A DNA stretch of 35,099 nucleotides from a virus: positions 1 to 35,099 of IMG/VR virus record IMGVR_UViG_3300044705_000012; one strand, 5' to 3'. The notes beneath the pieces are model-generated. The model had not been told where the DNA came from. It worked only from the letters and a program-made list of their open reading frames with translations, and did not search any database. Positions 10,745 to 21,011 of this stretch are shown here, in pieces; within the stretch, counting starts at the first letter, position 1, and every line of letters starts with the position of its first letter. The position numbers and the translations under genes were made by a program.

Positions 10745-10774
10745 TCAGTGATACGCTCGCTCAGCCTTACCTCG

Positions 10775-10855
10775 TGGGGAGAGCAGGATTTGAACCTGCC
10801 GACCTACACTCTTGATCGAAAGAGAGTGGTGCTCTGCCATCCAGCCGTTCTCCCC
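10775..10855 (-). tRNA. tRNA gene with enlarged anticodon arm, isotype unclear
   Basis: Minus strand, 81 bases to position 73 (A at 10775), no encoded CCA. The acceptor stem GGGGAGA pairs perfectly with TCTCCCC, the D-arm contains GGCTGGATGGCAGAGC, and the T-arm is GCAGG-TTCAAAT-CCTGC with perfect pairing. Between D-arm and T-arm there are 31 bases, where a normal short-variable-loop tRNA has about 23. The anticodon stem CACTC(T)/(A)GAGTG encloses a loop of 10-12 bases (contains TTTCGATC) instead of 7, so the anticodon cannot be assigned. It could be a specialised, decoy or decayed tRNA. Confidence 0.8.
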
Positions 10856-13863: not shown

Positions 13864-14002
13864 AGCGCTTTCCCTTCACTGAAGCGCCCCATTTGCAGTT
13901 GGTGCAGCGCCGATCGATGTATGGTCTCTTGTCGTCTAGCCTTCTCGGGTAGCGCCCGAATGCCTTGCCCGGCATGAGGGTCCCGCACCGCCAGCACGAC
14001 AT
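13856..14002 (-). CDS. 48-aa zinc-finger protein
   Basis: ATG at 14002 encodes MSCWRCGTLMPGKAFGRYPR, then RLDDKRPYIDRRCTNCKWGA, then SVKGKRYA. Paired CxxC motifs (residues 3/6 and 33/36) form a classic four-cysteine zinc knuckle, and the overall charge is strongly positive. The ribosome site is weak. It overlaps the next zinc-finger gene by 8 bases (ATGCGTAG). A small nucleic-acid-binding protein is likely. Confidence 0.7.
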   Translation of the reverse strand: MSCWRCGTLMPGKAFGRYPRRLDDKRPYIDRRCTNCKWGASVKGKRYA

Positions 14003-14036
14003 CGCAAGCAAGGTACGGGACCCAAGCCGGATCATC

Positions 14037-15044
14037 TCAGCGAACCTCGGTGATCGAGGAGATCAGCACATCCCGGAAGCCGGACTGCCCGGTGAAGGTG
14101 ATGAAGCGGCCACGCGGTCCCTCGCCGATCTTCGGTGCATTGGCGGCCTTCTTGACCTCGCGCGGGCTGGGCACCCGGTCGCTTTCCTCAGCATCCGAGG
14201 TGCCGTTGAGCCAGGTGATCCGCCTGCCGTACAAGGCATCCAGGACCTCCTGATCCAACGATGCCTCGGTGAACGGCAGCGCCTTCAGCGACTTCTTGGC
14301 GTCGGACTTCTGCCGACCTCCACCCCGGAGCGCCTTGTGCGCGGCGACCTTGCGGGCCTCCTGCTCGGCTGCCTCGGCCGGCACCGCCATACGCTTCTTG
14401 GCGGCACTCGCGTTGTGGACCTTGATGGCCGTCCGGCCGGCGTGCTGATACACGCAGGTCTCGCCCTGGAACACCCCGCCCAGCCAGGAGATCTCCAAAG
14501 TTTCCTCACCACGTCGCACCACAACCTTGGTGAGTTCGCCTTCGGTCTCCATGTCCCAAGTCCAACCCAGAGCGATGGCATCCTCCGCGAAAGCTGCGGC
14601 CTTTAGTTCGCTCTTGGTGTTGCCGCCTACCTTCTCAGCTTGCTTCGCCGGCATAGCCTTTGGAGCCTTCGCCTGTACAGCCTTGGCAGCAGCCTCCAGC
14701 CTTTGTCCGGTAGCTTTCGCATCACCCATGGGACGACGGGGCTGTGTCTTCGGCTTCTCCTCGGCCGGCTTCTCAGCCTCGGTGTCCTCAGCGGCCAGGA
14801 TCTCCCGCAGAACATCATCCTTGGCCATCTTGCTCAGGCCCGGGATCTTGTACCCCTTCTCCCGTGCGTACGCCCGGAGTTGTACAGCCGTCTTGTCCTG
14901 TAGCGTCACGATGTGCGCCGCATGCTCCAGCATCTCATCCGTGATCGTGCCCGGCTTGGGCGGTAGCGGCGTGCGCTGCGCGGCCTTGTCCTTGCGCGAG
15001 GTAGCAGCCGGACGGCCAGCCCCTCTCTTGACTGTGGTAACCAT
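14037..15044 (-). CDS. SAP-like, Lys/Ala-rich DNA-binding protein
   Basis: 335 residues, ATG after GAAGGGGATCTGGAA. Residues about 35-88 include TAVQLRAYAREKGYKIPGLS followed by KMAKDDVLREILAAEDTEA, which resembles a SAP or Rho-N-type helix-extended-loop-helix DNA-binding motif. Residues 90-140 are a low-complexity Lys/Ala/Pro linker. The C-terminal part contains a β-rich domain (WDMETEGELTKVVVRRGEET, GETCVYQHAGRTAIKVHN) and a further Lys-rich region. The single-gene unit has its own upstream element. A nucleoid-associated or transcription-related role is plausible but unproven. Confidence 0.7.
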   Translation of the reverse strand: MVTTVKRGAGRPAATSRKDKAAQRTPLPPKPGTITDEMLEHAAHIVTLQDKTAVQLRAYAREKGYKIPGLSKMAKDDVLREILAAEDTEAEKPAEEKPKTQPRRPMGDAKATGQRLEAAAKAVQAKAPKAMPAKQAEKVGGNTKSELKAAAFAEDAIALGWTWDMETEGELTKVVVRRGEETLEISWLGGVFQGETCVYQHAGRTAIKVHNASAAKKRMAVPAEAAEQEARKVAAHKALRGGGRQKSDAKKSLKALPFTEASLDQEVLDALYGRRITWLNGTSDAEESDRVPSPREVKKAANAPKIGEGPRGRFITFTGQSGFRDVLISSITEVR

Positions 15045-15083
15045 TTCCAGATCCCCTTCTCAACAACTTCCTCAATCACGCTG

Positions 15084-15112
15084 AGACTACCTTGTAGACT
15101 CCGCAAAAGCTA
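15084..15112 (-). promoter_or_regulatory. Promoter-like hexamer pair before the 14037 gene
   Basis: On the minus strand TAGCTT (15107-15112) and TAGTCT (15084-15089) are 17 bases apart, matching the spaced TAGACT pairs of five other units between 16.4 and 20.4 kb. The TTGnnn box seen further upstream in the others is missing here; a 32-base repeat (15121-15152) lies in its place. The GAAGGGGAT leader and the ATG follow. Confidence 0.5.
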
Positions 15113-15120
15113 CAACGACT

Positions 15121-15152
15121 TTGACTGGCCTCATTTGGTCAGAGACTGGCCG
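15121..15152 (-). repeat. 32-base direct repeat, copy 1
   Basis: Matches 19662-19693 at 29 of 32 positions. On the minus strand it starts CGGCCAGTCTCTGACC and ends GGCCAGTCAA, so GGCCAGTC itself occurs twice inside. It overlaps the stop of the 15131 gene and sits just upstream of the promoter-like element, as does the other copy. It could be a regulator-binding site. Confidence 0.65.
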
Positions 15153-15370
15153 TTGCGCTGGGAGCGTCCGGTTACACCAGACGATCGACGAGATCCAAGC
15201 ACAAGCGATGATACAACCCATGCAGCGAACATCCCGCCGAGGAACAGCATGGCTCCTCCGTCAGCCATGCGGATTTCCCAGACATCCCTTGTTGCTGCTA
15301 GTGCTGATATCATCCCGATCAACAGGGCTGCGACCAGTCCGATTAGCCGCATCCCCAACCGCGTGTTCAT
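15131..15370 (-). CDS. 79-aa membrane protein
   Basis: ATG at 15370 overlaps the stop of the DUF2786 gene (ATGA). The product begins MNTRLGMRLIGLVAALLIGM with a first helix at about residues 8-25 and a second at about 37-58 (GGAMLFLGGMFAAWVVSSLV). The C-terminal 20 residues are polar and basic (SRRSSGVTGRSQRNGQSLTK). It is a two-helix membrane protein of unknown role, expressed with the DUF2786 protein. Confidence 0.7.
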   Translation of the reverse strand: MNTRLGMRLIGLVAALLIGMISALAATRDVWEIRMADGGAMLFLGGMFAAWVVSSLVLGSRRSSGVTGRSQRNGQSLTK

Positions 15371-16368
15371 CCCTCGATCTCCTTTCCATATGCCTCCGAA
15401 GGCGACTCTACGCGCTGAGTGCGCGGAGTGGTCCGGGAGATCTGGACGGAGTCAGCAGCCGCACGCCCTGCCTCATGCGCCGCCACCGCAGCCGGGCTGT
15501 TGTTGAACCGCTGCCAGCGCGCTTCATCACTCTTGGTCCAGGACTTCACCGCACGACTCTTCCGGCCCTTCGCTGGAGCCTGCGGGGTGTTGCTAGCCGG
15601 CTTGGGGCGTTGGCTGGGGAACCGGGTGTAGAATGCCTCATCCACGCGCTCCTGCCGACCGGCCAACTCGATGACGCCACCGATCGCATCCGCCGCATCC
15701 CGAGCGTCGCGGAGTCGCTGCGCGAATCGGCGGGTAAACTCCTGCGCGTATGCGATCCGATAGGTCTTGGCATTGACGTTCCGGCCCGACACCGCAGCCT
15801 CTTCGCCCTTCTCGGCGCAGGCTTCCTTGTAAATCTGGCCGACCTTCAGCCCCTCGGCGTGGCCCCGCTTGCCGAACACCTGCTCGGCGATCGTCTGCCG
15901 GTCGATACCCGCCGACCGGAGCCGGTAGATGTTCTCCTTGTCGGAGAGCTTGGGGTCGACCTTCGGCTCCAGCTTGGCGATCATCATCAGCTTGGCCGAC
16001 TGGAACAAGAACGACGCGTAACGCAGGTCCGTCTCGTAACCAACTGCCTGGGCCAAGTACCCGCGACGCGCGGAGTCCCACCGGTACGCGTACCGGATGC
16101 CGCAGTGCTGTGCGACATAGTACCACAGCGCCTCGTGGTACTCGTGGAAAGAAGAGTCGAGGGAACTGACTTCCACCTCGAACATGGTGGGCTCGATGCT
16201 GCCCGGGTCGGACGCGATGAGGCTTTCCTCCTCGATGCGGTACTTGCGCATCAAGCTCTCGGCCTTCTCCCGGTACGCTGCGCGGGTTGCCTCGCCCAAG
16301 CGCTCATCATCCGCATTGGCGACGAGTGCGGCGATCATCGTCAGCATGTCTTCCATGTTCCTGGCCAT
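15367..16368 (-). CDS. DUF2786 domain protein
   Basis: 333 residues, ATG after GAAGGGGATCGAAA. Residues about 5-50 (MEDMLTMIAALVANADDERL, then EATRAAYREKAESLMRKYRI) match the DUF2786 pattern of a helical repeat ending in an LM-x-K/H-x-x-I motif. The following 150 residues (FHEYHEALWYYVAQHCGIRY, VGYETDLRYASFLFQSAKLM) resemble the domain that commonly accompanies DUF2786 in phages. The last 90 residues are basic and low-complexity. DUF2786 proteins are common in actinophages and lack an established function. It has its own promoter-like element at 16404-16455. Confidence 0.8.
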   Translation of the reverse strand: MARNMEDMLTMIAALVANADDERLGEATRAAYREKAESLMRKYRIEEESLIASDPGSIEPTMFEVEVSSLDSSFHEYHEALWYYVAQHCGIRYAYRWDSARRGYLAQAVGYETDLRYASFLFQSAKLMMIAKLEPKVDPKLSDKENIYRLRSAGIDRQTIAEQVFGKRGHAEGLKVGQIYKEACAEKGEEAAVSGRNVNAKTYRIAYAQEFTRRFAQRLRDARDAADAIGGVIELAGRQERVDEAFYTRFPSQRPKPASNTPQAPAKGRKSRAVKSWTKSDEARWQRFNNSPAAVAAHEAGRAAADSVQISRTTPRTQRVESPSEAYGKEIEG

Positions 16369-16403
16369 TTTCGATCCCCTTCTCGCTGTTGCTTACAAGA
16401 GCA

Positions 16404-16455
16404 AGCCTAGTCAGCATTTGTACAAAAGTCTAGCAATCTGCGCAACTTTGTACAA
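16404..16455 (-). promoter_or_regulatory. Three-hexamer promoter-like element before the DUF2786 gene
   Basis: Minus strand: TTGTAC (16450-16455), 17 bases, TAGACT (16427-16432), 17 bases, TAGGCT (16404-16409). TTGTAC and TAGACT resemble σ70 -35 and -10 boxes at ideal spacing. TTTGTACAAA palindromes occur at both the upstream box and between the two TAGACT-like boxes, which may be operator half-sites. The GAAGGGGAT leader and ATG lie about 35-40 bases downstream. Confidence 0.65.
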
Positions 16456-16463
16456 GATTTTCC

Positions 16464-16631
16464 TCAGCCCTTCGTCAGGTCGAAGGCTTGCCGCCGGATC
16501 TCATCCAGCTCAGCCTCGGTGAAGCCGATCATGTGCGTCCGGTGGCCATCGTTGACGCGAAGTTCGTATGGGAACTCTTCCGCCGTCAGCGACAATGGGT
16601 CAGTCCTGCGGACCTCGATCTTGCGCTCCAT
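16464..16631 (-). CDS. 55-aa small protein
   Basis: I place the start at the ATG at 16631 (GGAG ten bases upstream), one base after the preceding stop. The product begins MERKIEVRRTDPLSLTAEEF, continues PYELRVNDGHRTHMIGFTEA and ends ELDEIRRQAFDLTKG. It looks like a short β-hairpin followed by a helix. No family was recognised. It is the third gene of a unit with the 16816 and 16633 genes. Confidence 0.7.
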   Translation of the reverse strand: MERKIEVRRTDPLSLTAEEFPYELRVNDGHRTHMIGFTEAELDEIRRQAFDLTKG

Positions 16632-16632
16632 A

Positions 16633-16803
16633 TCAGTACTGCTCCTCAATCCGAACGGTGAAGATCTGGCCATTAGGCAGCCGCATGTCGAAGGCGACAA
16701 TTCGGGAATTGCCTTCCGGCATCCGACCGAACTCGATCTTGTTGTACTCGGCGGTGACTCGATCTTTGATCATTGCGGCCACTCGCGCCGGGCTGGTATC
16801 CAT
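16633..16803 (-). CDS. 56-aa small protein
   Basis: ATG at 16803 after GGAAGATCGAG. The product is MDTSPARVAAMIKDRVTAEY, NKIEFGRMPEGNSRIVAFDM, then RLPNGQIFTVRIEEQY: an N-terminal helix and two or three strands. It lies in a 184-base space between two other genes, with a 12-base gap before it and 1 base after it, which together with the ribosome site supports coding. Function unknown; the ββ pattern is similar to its downstream neighbour. Confidence 0.7.
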   Translation of the reverse strand: MDTSPARVAAMIKDRVTAEYNKIEFGRMPEGNSRIVAFDMRLPNGQIFTVRIEEQY

Positions 16804-16815
16804 CTCGATCTTCCT

Positions 16816-17121
16816 TCACTTGACGATCTTGATGGCGGACTTGGAGACGCGGTGCGAAGTCTTAGTGGTGCCGTTCTCGGCCTCCCACGAGATCACATAG
16901 ACGATCTTCGGCTTGTTACCGACGCGGGCTATCCGGCTCGAAGGCCACACCAGGTAAACGCTCTCGACGATGCCGATAGTTCCGGGCCGAAGGGCCGAGG
17001 TGTGGCCGGTCATCTTCTCGTGGAAATCGATCTTCGCGGCGTTTCCCTTGGTCTCGCGCGGGGTGACGATGTCGCCCACCTTGAACTCGGAGGTCTTGAG
17101 GTACTCATCCCGGTTGAACAT
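16816..17121 (-). CDS. 101-aa small β-barrel-like protein
   Basis: ATG at 17121 after GAAGGGGATCGAG. The product starts MFNRDEYLKTSEFKVGDIVT and continues with strand-rich segments (RPGTIGIVESVYLVWPSSRI, KPKIVYVISWEAENGTTKTS) and a basic C-terminus (HRVSKSAIKIVK). The FKVGDIVTP and PGTIGIVE segments recall small SH3/KOW-type barrels that bind nucleic acid or protein, but the match is loose. First gene of a three-gene unit with its own promoter-like element. Confidence 0.75.
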   Translation of the reverse strand: MFNRDEYLKTSEFKVGDIVTPRETKGNAAKIDFHEKMTGHTSALRPGTIGIVESVYLVWPSSRIARVGNKPKIVYVISWEAENGTTKTSHRVSKSAIKIVK

Positions 17122-17157
17122 CTCGATCCCCTTCTCCGTCCCTGCCTTACATCTACA

Positions 17158-17208
17158 AGTCTAGCCACTAGATGGGCAAAAGTCTACATATCTGCCCATC
17201 TTCGGCAA
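17158..17208 (-). promoter_or_regulatory. Three-hexamer promoter-like element with inverted repeat
   Basis: Minus strand: TTGCCG (17203-17208), 16 bases, TAGACT (17181-17186), 17 bases, TAGACT (17158-17163). GATGGGCA at 17171-17178 and TGCCCATC at 17193-17200 (plus strand) form an 8-bp inverted repeat around the middle TAGACT, a typical operator position. The 17216 gene ends 7 bases before the first box. Confidence 0.65.
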
Positions 17209-17215
17209 GATTTTT

Positions 17216-17302
17216 TCAGGCTCGGAACTTGTTGATGAGCCAGAGCAAGATCCCCAGCACAACCAGCGCAACCACAAAGTGGATCTCATCCGTCTTGGTC
17301 AC
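17216..17302 (-). CDS. 28-aa single-span membrane protein
   Basis: GTG at 17302 overlaps the stop of the zinc-ribbon gene (GTGA), with GAGAGG upstream. The product is VTKTDEIHFVVALVVLGILL followed by WLINKFRA: a short polar head, one helix and a basic tail, so topology is probably N-out/C-in. It is below the size limit of most gene callers. Coupled start and clean helix support that it is real. Confidence 0.6.
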   Translation of the reverse strand: MTKTDEIHFVVALVVLGILLWLINKFRA

Positions 17303-17580
17303 GGCTCAAACCTCTCTGCGTCAACACGCACTCGCTCGGCACACTCCTCCGAGCAGAAGACTCCCTGCTCAGTCTCGATAATCTCTGTTGATTCCAGGAT
17401 CTCTCCGGCACAGTCGTCGCACGCGTCGACTCCGTATGGCCGATCTATAACCTCCCTCCTCATCCGGCGATTTTCACAAGATCGGAAATTGGAACACTGA
17501 GTTTTTCCATCCCAGACTCTTGTCTTGATGCCCGGATGATCACCGAAATTCACCCCGCACCAAGGGCAATTCTTATTCAC
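17299..17580 (-). CDS. 93-aa double zinc-ribbon protein
   Basis: GTG at 17580 with AAGGGGAGAGACC upstream. The product begins VNKNCPWCGVNFGDHPGIKT, then RVWDGKTQCSNFRSCENRRM, and later VDACDDCAGEILES and GVFCSEECAERV. Eight cysteines in four closely spaced pairs imply two zinc sites, the second resembling a treble-clef or FCS-type finger. Likely a nucleic-acid or protein-binding adaptor. It is followed by the 28-aa membrane gene with a GTGA overlap. Confidence 0.75.
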   Translation of the reverse strand: MNKNCPWCGVNFGDHPGIKTRVWDGKTQCSNFRSCENRRMRREVIDRPYGVDACDDCAGEILESTEIIETEQGVFCSEECAERVRVDAERFEP

Positions 17581-17616
17581 GGTCTCTCCCCTTCTCGCCA
17601 CTGACTTACCTGGGCC

Positions 17617-17638
17617 GGGCACCTCCGGAGAGGTGCCC
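17617..17638 (-). terminator. 9-bp hairpin with tetraloop
   Basis: GGGCACCTC (17617-17625) and GAGGTGCCC (17630-17638) pair perfectly around a four-base loop, just after the stop of the 17651 gene and before the next start. No T-run follows, so it may be a partial terminator or an mRNA end-protecting hairpin. Confidence 0.5.
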
Positions 17639-17650
17639 CGCCCTCCGGCG

Positions 17651-18196
17651 TCAGGAGCCCAGGACCCGCAGTGCCTCTGAGACGTTCCGGACCTTCTTGC
17701 CGTTGACCAGCGAACCGGCCGAGACGAACCGTCCCCGGACATCCCACACCAGCTTGACGTCGCCTGCGGTGAGGGTGGTGACTCCCTTGACGGTGCGAAC
17801 CTTGACGGAACCCTTCTCGAAGTACTGGCCCTCAATCTTCTCCGCGACCGTGAGAGCCTTGGTCTTCGGGTCGGCCTTCGGCGGAACCGTGAGCCGGATG
17901 CCCTCCCGGGAGGTTCCGGTGCGCGGGGTGTACGCCTTCTTGGCTTCGTTAAGCTCCGGGTGGCAAACCCAGCACTGCTCGGTCTCGGCCTTGGTCTCGG
18001 CAACAAAGGCGTTGAAAGCCTTGACGGTCTTGAAGTTGGTCTCGGCCTTTGTCAAGCTCTCGATCCCCTCGTGGCCGTTGTCGCTGTGGATGTTCTCCCA
18101 CTCGGCCTCGGTCAGACAAATCTGGCAGATCCGACCCTCCGGCGAGTCACTGCTAGCCGGCCGACCGCACTCCATCTCGCAACGCTTGCTGCTCAT
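17651..18196 (-). CDS. Zinc-finger protein with CxVCHPEL motif
   Basis: 181 residues, ATG after GAAGGGGAGATCGAA. The N-terminal 50 residues hold CEMECGRP, CQICLTEAEW and HSDNGHEG, a Cys/His set for one zinc site. Residues about 73-82 contain EQCWVCHPEL, a motif repeated in the next-door 63-aa protein (18292-18483). The C-terminal part is β-rich and basic (KVRTVKGVTTLTAGDVKLVW, DVRGRFVSAGSLVNGKKVRN). It may bind nucleic acid. The gene is in a unit with its own promoter-like element. Confidence 0.75.
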   Translation of the reverse strand: MSSKRCEMECGRPASSDSPEGRICQICLTEAEWENIHSDNGHEGIESLTKAETNFKTVKAFNAFVAETKAETEQCWVCHPELNEAKKAYTPRTGTSREGIRLTVPPKADPKTKALTVAEKIEGQYFEKGSVKVRTVKGVTTLTAGDVKLVWDVRGRFVSAGSLVNGKKVRNVSEALRVLGS

Positions 18197-18242
18197 TTCG
18201 ATCTCCCCTTCTCGGTTTTCCCTGTCACCTGCTTACACTACA

Positions 18243-18295
18243 AGTCTAACCTGGGGATCGTTGTACAGTCTACCCCCATCCAGACATTTGTTCAG
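18243..18295 (-). promoter_or_regulatory. Three-hexamer promoter-like element before the 17651 gene
   Basis: Minus strand: CTGAAC (18290-18295), 17 bases, TAGACT (18267-18272), 18 bases, TAGACT (18243-18248), then TTGTAGTGTAAGC and the GAAGGGGAG leader. A-rich sequence (GAAAAATTT) precedes the first box like an UP element. It overlaps the last codons of the 18292 gene. Confidence 0.6.
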
Positions 18296-18483
18296 AAATT
18301 TTTCAACTCCGGGTGGCACACCTGGCACTCGTCGATCTCCTCCTTGTACCGCGACAAGTCCTCCAGGATCTGTGCCTTGTTCGAGATCGTGGCTCCGGTC
18401 CGCAGGACCGTGCCGGCTCGGTTGATCCGGCCTTCGTGGTCGTCATCGTAGTGGTCGATGACGTGCTCCTCGTAAGTCTTCAT
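18292..18483 (-). CDS. 63-aa protein with CxVCHPEL motif
   Basis: I use the ATG at 18483 because GGAG lies 6-9 bases upstream; a longer frame from 18525 has no ribosome site and would read through a hairpin. The product begins MKTYEEHVIDHYDDDHEGRI and ends with ECQVCHPELKNF. The C-terminal CxxCHPEL is nearly the same as the motif in the 17651 protein, which suggests a shared ancestor or a common partner. The N-terminal part is acidic and helical. Function unknown. Confidence 0.7.
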   Translation of the reverse strand: MKTYEEHVIDHYDDDHEGRINRAGTVLRTGATISNKAQILEDLSRYKEEIDECQVCHPELKNF

Positions 18484-18510
18484 GCCCTTCTCCCCTGATT
18501 GGCCATTGGC

Positions 18511-18539
18511 GGTGCCCTCGCCCACGTTACAAGGGCACC
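18511..18539 (-). terminator. 8-bp hairpin between genes
   Basis: GGTGCCCT (18511-18518) pairs with AGGGCACC (18532-18539) around a 13-base loop, between the stop of the 18552 gene and the next ATG. No T-run. Similar hairpins follow other units in this block. Confidence 0.45.
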
Positions 18540-18551
18540 ACCCAAAGCCCG

Positions 18552-19316
18552 TCAGAATCCCAGCTTGCCCCGGCAGTCCGGCCCGATTCCGTACGCGCGG
18601 GAGGTCTCGTCAGTCAACGTCCGGTGACACTTGCCGCAGCGACCGATCTCCTGGCCATACCGCGTCATCGCGCCTTCGACATCCTCCGCGATGGCCCGCA
18701 AGATCCGCTCCTTGTGCTCGCGGTTCTTGATCGGGTGGAGGTCATCGCTGGCCTGCGCAGAGAGGAAGACCCAACCCGCCCAACGGGCCTCGGTGGGCTT
18801 GTCGACCTTGTAGAACTTGACCGCGCCGTCGATCTCCAGCGCGTAGTGCCCTTCCGGAACGTCCGGGAAGCCGGTTGTGGTTCGGGTGACCGGCGACTGC
18901 TTGTTGCCGCCGGTGTACTGCTGCAGCGTGCGCTGCTCGTCGAGGTTTCGTGGCCGGTATCCGGCGAGCGCTTTCTCATCTCGGGCTGCCTTGTAGGCCG
19001 CCCCGCGCTGGTCTTCTGCACGCTCGCGCTCCTGCTCGGCCTCAGCCATCGCCAGATCAGCTTCTCGGCTGGACATCCGACCAAGCTGCTGCAAGATCCC
19101 ATTCGGACTGGTCTTGACCATCCCGTTACCGCCGGACCTCGGCCGGAGCGCTGCGATGGATGCGCGTCGTGCCGTCTCGCGGTTGTAGCTGGTTGTAAGC
19201 GACGGAGCGCCACCGTCACGCCGTACCTGGGTAGTTCCCTGCTCGGAGCATTCCCGAACCTCTGCGACCGTGTCGTGCCGTCCCTTGCAATGCCCACACT
19301 TCATCTTCTTTGCCAT
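18552..19316 (-). CDS. DUF6011-like zinc-ribbon protein
   Basis: 254 residues from the first ATG (MAKKMKCGHCKGRHDTVAEV). The ribosome site AAGAAGGGG touches that ATG, so the ATG at 19304 (MKCGHC) is an alternative. A CxxC-H motif opens the protein, a Glu/Arg-rich helical region fills the middle, and the C-terminal 90 residues hold a β-domain (GHYALEIDGAVKFYKVDKPT) and then CGKCHRTLTDETSRAYGIGP followed by DC. This last part matches the Cys-rich motif of DUF6011-type proteins in actinophages (LTD, SxxxGIGPxC). Function is not established. Confidence 0.75.
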   Translation of the reverse strand: MAKKMKCGHCKGRHDTVAEVRECSEQGTTQVRRDGGAPSLTTSYNRETARRASIAALRPRSGGNGMVKTSPNGILQQLGRMSSREADLAMAEAEQERERAEDQRGAAYKAARDEKALAGYRPRNLDEQRTLQQYTGGNKQSPVTRTTTGFPDVPEGHYALEIDGAVKFYKVDKPTEARWAGWVFLSAQASDDLHPIKNREHKERILRAIAEDVEGAMTRYGQEIGRCGKCHRTLTDETSRAYGIGPDCRGKLGF

Positions 19317-19440
19317 CCCCTTCTTTACTGGGCTTGTTGCCTTGGTAGCGTGGGGATTCGCACCCCTAGCCGCTGAGACACGCTAGGTCGGTTCTAACCG
19401 CCATCTCGTCGTGCTTTCGCCTGACCGTTCTCGGGTCTGC
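19317..19440 (-). other. tRNA-like remnant in leader of the 18552 gene
   Basis: On the minus strand GGGGTGCGAATCCCC (around 19353-19367) looks like a T-arm, followed by CGCTACCA, a plausible acceptor 3' half. Upstream, CCTAGC/GCTAGG forms a 6-bp stem with an 11-base loop, and GGCGGTTAGAACC resembles a D-arm. No matching 5' acceptor (GGTAGCG) is found at normal distance; GGTGGCG occurs but too far upstream. It may be a decayed tRNA or a structured leader. Confidence 0.3.
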
Positions 19441-19568
19441 TATCTTGGCTATGCTGCCGAAGGCTCTGCTTGCTCCGTTCGACTCCGCCACCTCGAATTG
19501 CGATGTAGTTTTCAAGGTTCCTGCTAGCCGGTCCGCCGGCCCGTCCTGCCCTGCGCCTTACAACAATG
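19441..19568 (-). other. Untranslated leader, no gene seen
   Basis: Together with 19317-19440 this makes a leader of about 250 bases between the promoter-like element and the 18552 gene. No ORF with a ribosome site was found on either strand. The GC-rich stretch GGGCCGGCGGACCGGC is locally self-complementary. The length is unusual in a window where most gaps are under 20 bases. Confidence 0.4.
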
Positions 19569-19621
19569 ACTCTAGTGGCTGTGTAACTCCAGCGTCTACC
19601 CCTTCAGAAAAATTTGTACAA
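19569..19621 (-). promoter_or_regulatory. Three-hexamer promoter-like element with long leader
   Basis: Minus strand: TTGTAC (19616-19621), 17 bases, TAGACG (19593-19598), 18 bases, TAGAGT (19569-19574), then TTGTTGTAAGGCG as in the other copies. A 32-base repeat lies about 40 bases upstream of the first box. Confidence 0.55.
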
Positions 19622-19661
19622 GATTCTTTTCAGCAGAAAATCCCTACAGCAGATCTTGTGT

Positions 19662-19693
19662 TTGAGTGGTCTCATTTGGCCAGAGACTGGCCG
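19662..19693 (-). repeat. 32-base direct repeat, copy 2
   Basis: 29 of 32 positions match 15121-15152. On the minus strand it starts CGGCCAGTCTCTGGCC. As with copy 1, it lies upstream of a promoter-like element and downstream of the previous unit. Confidence 0.65.
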
Positions 19694-19748
19694 ACCCCCT
19701 GTACGCAACCGATCCTACAGACCCTGCCACATTCGCCATTTCGCCTGG

Positions 19749-19783
19749 TAAAAGGGCCAGGAGTCGACTGCCCTCCTGGCCCT
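19749..19783 (-). terminator. Rho-independent terminator after the DUF2637 gene
   Basis: On the minus strand AGGGCCAGGAG (19773-19783) and CTCCTGGCCCT (19753-19763) form a perfect 11-bp stem with a 9-base loop, directly followed by a TTTT run. It lies 20 bases past the stop of the DUF2637 gene and is the best intrinsic terminator in the window. Confidence 0.85.
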
Positions 19784-19802
19784 GCTGCTTCGCTCCCGGT
19801 AC

Positions 19803-20348
19803 CTAGGCCGCCACAAGCGCCTCCAGCGCCTTAGCCTGAGCCTTACGCTCGCGCGCCTTCTTGGCGTCGTTCTTGCGGCGAGTCTCCCAAGCCTTCTTGG
19901 CGCGCTCGCTGCGAGCCTGCGCAGCCAACTCCTCCGGCGACGGCAGCGCGGCGATGGCCTCCAGCTCAGCAGTCTCAATCTTCTTGGTCTCGGCCTGCCG
20001 AGTCTCCATGTGGTCACTCAGCCACTCGGCGAAGAGGAAGAGAGCTACCGCACCAATCCCGGTCATCCGGTCGCCGGTTGTGTTGCCTGCGTAGATGTTG
20101 GCAGCGAGCGAGAGAGTACCCGCCCCCAGCTGCACCCGGAAGCCGATCTTGTTGGTGGCGCTACTCCAGTTCTTGCTCCGCATGACCATCCCGATGACGG
20201 CGATCCCGTCAATCATGAACGGCCAGCACCAGATCTGCCAGCCGGTCGTGTGGAGCTTGTTGGCTGCCTCCACGATGTGCATGAAGGAGAGGGTCAGCGC
20301 GCCGAGGAAGTAAGCCTTGACGATGGTACGAACGATGAAGGTCTGCAT
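19803..20348 (-). CDS. DUF2637-like membrane protein
   Basis: 181 residues, ATG after AAGGGGATCGAA. Four hydrophobic segments lie within residues 1-115 (YFLGALTLSFMHIVEAANKL, GWQIWCWPFMIDGIAVIGMV, VQLGAGTLSLAANIYAG, GIGAVALFLFAEWLSD). The F-x-H, P-x-x-IDG and LAAN signatures fit DUF2637, a family found in actinobacterial chromosomes and as transfer (Spd-like) proteins of conjugative plasmids. Residues 115-181 are a long charged helix rich in Lys, Arg and Ala. Expected location: host membrane, with a cytoplasmic basic tail. The single-gene unit has its own promoter-like element and terminator. Confidence 0.8.
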   Translation of the reverse strand: MQTFIVRTIVKAYFLGALTLSFMHIVEAANKLHTTGWQIWCWPFMIDGIAVIGMVMRSKNWSSATNKIGFRVQLGAGTLSLAANIYAGNTTGDRMTGIGAVALFLFAEWLSDHMETRQAETKKIETAELEAIAALPSPEELAAQARSERAKKAWETRRKNDAKKARERKAQAKALEALVAA

Positions 20349-20407
20349 TTCGATCCCCTTGGAAGTCTGTCGGCGGAGCGTTTTCGCTTCAACGCCTTAC
20401 AACTCCA

Positions 20408-20459
20408 AGTCTAATCAGCAATTGGCCAAAAGTAAAGCAGGATTGGTCATATTCTCCAA
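20408..20459 (-). promoter_or_regulatory. Three-hexamer promoter-like element before the DUF2637 gene
   Basis: Minus strand: TTGGAG (20454-20459), 17 bases, TTTACT (20431-20436), 17 bases, TAGACT (20408-20413), then TGGAGTTGTAAGGCG. The middle box is the least conserved of the set. It lies between the lysis-block hairpin and the DUF2637 gene. Confidence 0.6.
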
Positions 20460-20479
20460 AAATTTTCAGCAGATATGGC

Positions 20480-20512
20480 GGTGCCCCCGGCCAAGGAGTA
20501 ACCGGGGGCACC
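20480..20512 (-). terminator. 11-bp hairpin closing the lysis block
   Basis: GGTGCCCCCGG (20480-20490) and CCGGGGGCACC (20502-20512) pair perfectly with an 11-base loop. On the minus strand a TTTTT run comes about 18 bases later, so this is a strong hairpin with a delayed T-run. It marks the end of the structural/lysis transcription unit 30 bases after its last gene. Confidence 0.7.
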
Positions 20513-20541
20513 AGTCCAGGATAGCGCTTTCCTAGCGCATA

Positions 20542-20757
20542 TCAGCTGTGAGCGCTGGGGATCGAGGCAGCCCGATCGGCGTCACTGCCTCGCGCACTGA
20601 TCGCGTCATCCACCGCGTTGACACACAACGCGCCGTATTCCGCCCCAACGACATCAACAGCCTGACGCTGGGTCAGGGGTACGTTCGGCGTCACCTCAGC
20701 CGGTGGCGTGATCGTATGCCCCTGGCCCTCAATCTGAGTGTTGGTAGAAGTCGTCAC
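20542..20757 (-). CDS. 71-aa protein at the end of the lysis group
   Basis: GTG at 20757 overlaps the holin-like gene stop (GTGA) and follows GGAGGGAGCAA. The product starts VTTSTNTQIEGQGHTITPPA and ends SARGSDADRAASIPSAHS. The first 28 residues are polar and Pro/Thr-rich and the middle (QRQAVDVVGAEYGALCVNAV) is a helix. No membrane segment. No family was recognised; it may be a regulator of lysis or a short virion-associated protein. Confidence 0.7.
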   Translation of the reverse strand: MTTSTNTQIEGQGHTITPPAEVTPNVPLTQRQAVDVVGAEYGALCVNAVDDAISARGSDADRAASIPSAHS

Positions 20758-21011
20758 TTGCTCCCTCCTCTAGCGCTCAGCATCTTGTGAACGGTCGCTG
20801 GGCTGAACACCTTGCGCCGGCCCCAGGCCCACATCAGAAGCGGAGTCGCTGTAGCCAACACAGTCAGGATCTGGACCTGAGTTGCCGGAGAGATCTTGAA
20901 GCCGAGCGTCACCAGAAGGCCGAGAACGACGCTGGCTCCTGAGACAATCACCCCCGGACCTCGCAGCGGTTCCTTGTTGTCCGGATTGGGTTGCAGCTTC
21001 TGGTCAACCAT
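20754..21011 (-). CDS. Holin-like two-helix membrane protein
   Basis: I use the ATG at 21011, seven bases after the perfect Shine-Dalgarno GGAGGT; the ATG at 21026 lacks one. The product (85 aa) starts MVDQKLQPNPDNKEPLRGPG, then has two hydrophobic segments, about 21-39 (VIVSGASVVLGLLVTLGF) and 44-62 (ATQVQILTVLATATPLLMWA), and a basic C-terminus (GRRKVFSPATVHKMLSARGG). Size, two helices, charged ends and place beside the endolysin fit a class II holin. Overlaps the following gene with GTGA. Confidence 0.75.
   Translation of the reverse strand: MVDQKLQPNPDNKEPLRGPGVIVSGASVVLGLLVTLGFKISPATQVQILTVLATATPLLMWAWGRRKVFSPATVHKMLSARGGSK

Follow-up and report, generated by a model that had tools for sequence, protein, structure and literature searches.

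In cluster K mycobacteriophages, the SAS and ESAS have been described as promoter-like elements that recur in intergenic gaps, with hexamers spaced 17-18 bp and a leader that is conserved (PMC3203893, PMC11373665), and the ESAS, with their inverted repeats, have been read as SigA-like promoters (PMC11373665). In the cluster EC phages of Microbacterium, an 18-bp motif, 5'-TAGaCTATaGGTgTaAgC, has been reported together with a similar one in cluster EI; its function was reported as unclear, and the available part of that report describes no -35 half of the motif (PMC7302621). The same part presents ESAS/SAS of the cluster EF phage AnnaSerena, in which GTAGCG, 18 bp and TAnnnT are followed by a conserved ribosome-binding-like leader before the start codon (PMC7302621).

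The DNA analyzed here (the window) is a 35,099-base IMG/VR virus record, a 35 kb fragment of an actinophage genome. Nearly all of its genes are carried on the minus strand, in the order of tail and lysis genes (at the high coordinates), a block of small genes, and helicase and recombination genes. Matches for the helicase and for gene 15367-16368 are mainly from phages of actinobacteria; megablast gave no match of the window to known phages, and no relatives of the DUF6011 protein (18552-19316) were found in IMG/VR. An earlier note, made from the letters of the window, had proposed six serial promoter-like elements, and all six are present on the minus strand. They occupy intergenic gaps in the block of small genes that separates the lysis genes from the helicase, and are oriented with transcription.

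P16404, 16391-16470, minus strand: promoter element upstream of gene 15367-16368 (predicted target); A-rich/TTGTAC 16450-16455, putative -35 TAGACT 16427-16432, putative -10 TAGGCT 16404-16409, predicted +1 at the G of GTAAG, 16396.
P17158, 17145-17220, minus strand: promoter element, predicted target gene 16816-17121; A-rich/TTGCCG 17203-17208, putative -35 TAGACT 17181-17186, putative -10 TAGACT 17158-17163, predicted +1 G 17150.
P18243, 18231-18310, minus strand: promoter element, predicted target gene 17651-18196; CTGAAC 18290-18295, putative -35 TAGACT 18267-18272, putative -10 TAGACT 18243-18248, predicted +1 G 18236.
P19569, 19556-19640, minus strand: promoter element with a ~240-nt leader, then gene 18552-19316; TTGTAC 19616-19621, putative -35 TAGACG 19593-19598, putative -10 TAGAGT 19569-19574, predicted +1 G 19561.
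P20408, 20395-20475, minus strand: promoter element, predicted target gene 19803-20348; TTGGAG 20454-20459, putative -35 TTTACT 20431-20436, putative -10 TAGACT 20408-20413, predicted +1 G 20400.
P15084, 15084-15112, minus strand: weak copy upstream of gene 14037-15044; TAGCTT 15107-15112, N17, -10-like TAGTCT 15084-15089, without GTAAG.
Inverted repeat GATGGGCA/TGCCCATC, 17171-17200, minus strand: putative -35 box in the loop; candidate promoter-embedded hairpin.
GAAGGGGA leader, 16375-16382, minus strand: SAS-like, putative ribosome-binding sequence; further starts of this leader on the minus strand at 15059, 17134, 17594, 18211, and 19323.

The earlier note had assigned three hexamers, TTGnnn and two TAGACT-like boxes, to five of the elements, and only the last two boxes to P15084, as is seen in that weak copy. 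TTGnnn is present in four of the five, P18243 having CTGAAC instead. The TAGACT-like pair is exact in P17158 and P18243 and contains one or two mismatches in P16404 (TAGACT/TAGGCT), P19569 (TAGACG/TAGAGT), and P20408 (TTTACT/TAGACT). The GAAGGGGAT leader, which had been placed downstream of the elements, is close in four, takes the form CCAAGGGGATC at 20408, and lies ~240 bp away at 19569. The third hexamer does not follow one helical register further on, as had been stated, since the distance between the TAGACT boxes is 23-24 bp, or ~2.2 turns. In addition, five of the six elements have GTAAG, which had been missed, 6-7 bp past the third hexamer; it is the more conserved part.

Three further features were seen in the window. 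A 33-bp repeat (91% identical) occurs at 15120-15152 and 19661-19693, in each case upstream of one of the six elements. The long leader between P19569 and gene 18552-19316 contains, on the minus strand at 19325-19500, a sequence resembling the T-arm and acceptor end of a tRNA (GGGGTGCGAATCCCCACGCTACC); ARAGORN calls no tRNA in this segment, and its fold is no better than those of shuffles. A tRNA was weakly called on the minus strand at 10774-10855, its anticodon being undetermined.

The elements are far above chance. Two exact TAGACT-N17/18-TAGACT pairs were found in the window against 0.0 expected per strand, and one pair with one mismatch against 0.03. The published EC core, TAGACT-N5/6-TGTAAG, occurs three times, against none in 100 shuffles, and this count is the independent test. 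The pattern TAnnnT-N5..8-GTAAG (hereafter -10/GTAAG), the definition of which was partly made after the window was seen, has five minus-strand matches, which coincide with the five stronger elements, whereas 400 order-3 Markov sequences gave a mean of 0.36 and a maximum of 3. The gaps are AT-richer than the genes, which is what an origin as chance motifs within AT-rich gaps would call on; however, shuffles of the six element regions, the comparison that the earlier note had suggested, average 0.05 core hits, and the elements recur in unrelated phages. These counts refute a chance origin, the probability of which we regard as negligible.

The window elements resemble the EC motif in that TAGACT, 6 bp and GTAAG lie intergenically, along transcription and before a start codon, and in that a TAGAC box is located 17-18 bp upstream in most EC copies. 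Within the gaps of the window, three elements have the exact EC core and five of six have TAnnnT followed by 6-7 bp and GTAAG. In contrast, the EC copies are nearly identical to each other and have a GC-rich upstream sequence (CTAACnnnGATTAGAC) without the A-rich/TTG element, and the EC discriminator ATAGGT between the -10 and GTAAG is replaced in the window by TGTAGAT, TGTAGT, TGGAGTT, CATTGTT, or TGCTCTT. The cluster EF elements share the GTAG-type box, the spacing, TAnnnT and the leader position described above, whereas their leader is GGGAAAGGACCCC and GTAAG is absent, indicating that GTAAG is not universal. The cluster K elements share the serial intergenic arrangement, the spacing and a conserved leader. 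They differ in having a canonical TTGACA -35 and hexamers within a sequence-conserved 17-bp inverted repeat, and in lacking both the TAGACT pair and GTAAG. The 13-bp cluster K SAS at the start codon, GGGATAGGAGCCC, was not found in the window, where the leader is GAAGGGGATC, nor were 17-bp inverted repeats of conserved sequence spanning the hexamers: the arms vary, and a strong stem is seen only at 17158. In Streptomyces and Microbacterium phages, where the same layout recurs, it had been reported in part only and without known function.

The layout was found again, above expectation, in related phages, a search that the earlier note had also suggested. L007, an uncultured relative, was found only through its helicase, and its -10/GTAAG matches were counted before its elements were inspected; there are six, where 0.4 would be expected, and five of the six lie in the block upstream of its helicase. 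Paschalis, a Microbacterium phage reached by a pattern scan of IMG/VR, carries eleven copies and has nine -10/GTAAG matches against 0.2-0.4 expected. The Streptomyces phages were reached through gene 15367-16368, a homologue of which stands there in the same order with a helicase. Yara has ten -10/GTAAG matches on the minus strand (0.2-0.4 expected), nine of them in the small-gene gaps of the right arm.

In total, eleven related elements were identified in Yara and 24 in five further Streptomyces phages (Gibson, Wentworth, phiRKBJ001, PHTowN, and Dryad). These repeated intergenic elements, identified in the present analysis, share with the window the A-rich/TTG element, a -35-like box with a GTAG core, 17-18 bp, a TAnAnT -10-like box, 6-7 bp and GTAAG; they differ in having GGGGTAGCG rather than TAGACT as the -35-like box and TAGAGT or TATAGT as the -10-like box. 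All but one of the 35 were chosen by -10/GTAAG alone, and in 29 of the 35 a TAG precedes the -10 by 23-24 bp. In cluster EF, AnnaSerena has ten copies of TAGCG-N18-TAnnnT against 0.05 expected. These results indicate, at the level of sequence, that the same architecture recurs in L007, in Streptomyces phages such as Yara and Gibson, in Microbacterium cluster EC and, lacking GTAAG, in the ESAS of cluster EF.

Conversely, the architecture is lacking in four regions of mycobacteriophages and Gordonia phages: none of the patterns was found in the ZoeJ, Anaya, and GTE8 regions and at most one of each in that of BiPauneto. TAG[AC][CG]-N18/19-TAnnnT was not enriched in MementoMori (EI), in L007, or in most of the remoter helicase relatives. 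An IMG/VR scan with TAGNNTNNTTGTTGTAAGGC gave 23 matches, of which only L074, situated on the L007 contig, appeared genuine, and a scan with GGGGTAG...TAGAGT...GTAAG gave none. L003, L005, and L006, with one match each and counts near chance, were set aside.

Other leader features were observed in these genomes. In L007, two of five elements (3299 and 4740) are followed by a leader, AAACTAGACAAGGGGA, that contains another CTAGAC. In the Streptomyces phages, some 5' leaders contain hammerhead-like ribozymes: sequences resembling type II hammerheads (CGAAAC ... CTGAnGAG) occur eight times in the right arm of Yara (minus strand of L053, at 12202, 12571, 13422, 14058, 14898, 17284, 17755, and 17979) and at seven sites in Gibson (L088), many of them in gaps immediately upstream of genes. 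Their best Rfam match scores 29.2 of 37 bits, under the gathering score (E 0.007).

The earlier note had taken the first pair of hexamers as a sigma-70 promoter and the third as an additional -10 box, an assignment that the spacings do not bear out. In the window and its relatives, the middle and last boxes are 17-18 bp apart and the last box is 6-7 bp from GTAAG; in all six window elements, TAnnnT has a hexamer 17-18 bp upstream, within the 16-18 bp of sigma-A-type spacing. The TTG, by contrast, is separated from the middle box by 16-17 bp in four of five window elements and mostly by ~7 bp in the Streptomyces relatives, both distances occurring within Gibson and within Dryad, and Paschalis has no TTG at the corresponding position. 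A 10-bp move is impossible for a -35 box and possible for a protein site or UP-like element that stays on one helix face. Since the TTG moves by one helical turn while the last pair is fixed, the last pair is the likely promoter, and the TTG box does not qualify as a general -35. This evidence also bears on overlapping tandem promoters, TTGnnn-N17-TAGACT and TAGACT-N17-TAGACT, in which the middle box would serve as both -10 and -35. The 16-17 bp distance in the window would suit this arrangement; however, the variable TTG distance in the Streptomyces relatives, the lack of the TTG in Paschalis, and the presence of GTAAG after the last box only make it an unlikely one.

We therefore prefer serial promoters in which the middle hexamer, TAGACT-like with a GTAGAC core, would be the -35, the last hexamer, an actinobacterial TAnnnT, the -10, and the G of GTAAG, 6-7 bp past the -10, the transcription start; judged by sequence comparison, this whole reading is probably correct. 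The A-rich stretch upstream, ending in TTGnnnnAA, may act as an UP-like or activator-type element, and the conserved leader GAAGGGGATC as a ribosome-binding sequence. The suggestion that each gene cluster has its own copy of a repeated phage promoter set is supported for five or six clusters, and with one copy per cluster many small minus-strand gene clusters would be expressed in parallel.

A scan of window positions 14000-21000 for sites matching TTGACA/TATAAT at 9 or more of 12 positions found none, which counts against the preferred reading and indicates that the -35 is clearly off consensus. This departure, together with the conserved GTAG core and the small "RNA polymerase sigma factor" annotated in EC phages, would be in keeping with a phage-specific sigma factor, a polymerase modification or a phage RNA polymerase as the reader. 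However, ten records yielded no sigma-70 region 2, the records searched for region 4 gave no match above the cut-off, and six records contained no recognisable WhiB. The EC "sigma factor" is likewise not supported as the reader by the sigma-domain searches, and its Paschalis representative, gp82, has only 77 residues. A search for single-subunit RNA polymerases gave no match in the records searched, the window being a fragment, and none for the positive controls either, so that it does not speak for the absence of such an enzyme. We consider a phage-specific reader improbable, and, given that no sigma domain or WhiB was found in the records searched, the host sigma-A RNA polymerase is the default and likeliest reader, the non-consensus -35 presumably being made up for by the upstream element or a further factor.

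For the inverted repeats between the boxes, which had been regarded as operators, the example at 17171-17200 is real (fold z -5.4), whereas a common operator is not supported. Three of the six window elements fold no better than shuffles (z >= 0.3), and two are marginal (-1.9 and -1.1). Strong stems are also seen in L007 at 9395 (z -6.6) and in Yara at 60649 (z -6.5) and 62589 (z -3.8); most copies lack one, and the mean fold z of -0.2 to -1.5 is due to single copies, so that inverted repeats were rejected as a feature common to every copy. Pairing within promoters compared with pairing across promoters reached p < 0.05 only in Yara, Gibson, phiRKBJ001, and PHTowN. In a small alignment of five Streptomyces promoters from the same gene-order position, plus one of L007 upstream of a different gene, the arms around GTAGCG covary: 97.4% of cells are paired, against 41-53% in slid controls, and compensatory changes affect both partners in 8 of 13 pairs.

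As far as the compared sequences go, these arms, variable across promoters and complementary within each, are not one operator. Operators of a single phage repressor or activator overlaid on the promoters would find some backing in the two occurrences of TTGTACAAA at 16404, in the conserved inverted repeats over the SigA-like hexamers of cluster K ESAS, and in the one-turn shift of the TTG element, which is compatible with a protein site. Against them, the arms differ and none of the window proteins scanned was recognisable as a repressor or any other regulator; we consider such operators rather doubtful. Variable yet complementary arms with the -35 box in the loop could instead form an RNA hairpin or a DNA cruciform, a promoter-embedded terminator, insulator or switch that would stop read-through coming from the upstream cluster and couple it to re-initiation at the next; we put this forward tentatively, as a minor possibility.

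Overall, the conservation, position, spacing, and recurrence of the elements give good support to their being serial phage promoters, a variant of the ESAS/EC-type elements with a corrected box assignment, the transcription start, the polymerase and the timing of expression being inferred. Repeated intergenic motifs "of unknown function" occur in several actinobacterial phage groups, and the -35/-10/+1 alignment across hosts would provide one reading for the EC motif, the EF ESAS, and two sets for which we found no description in the literature. On this reading, exact start sites can be predicted in dozens of operons of phages that grow on laboratory strains.
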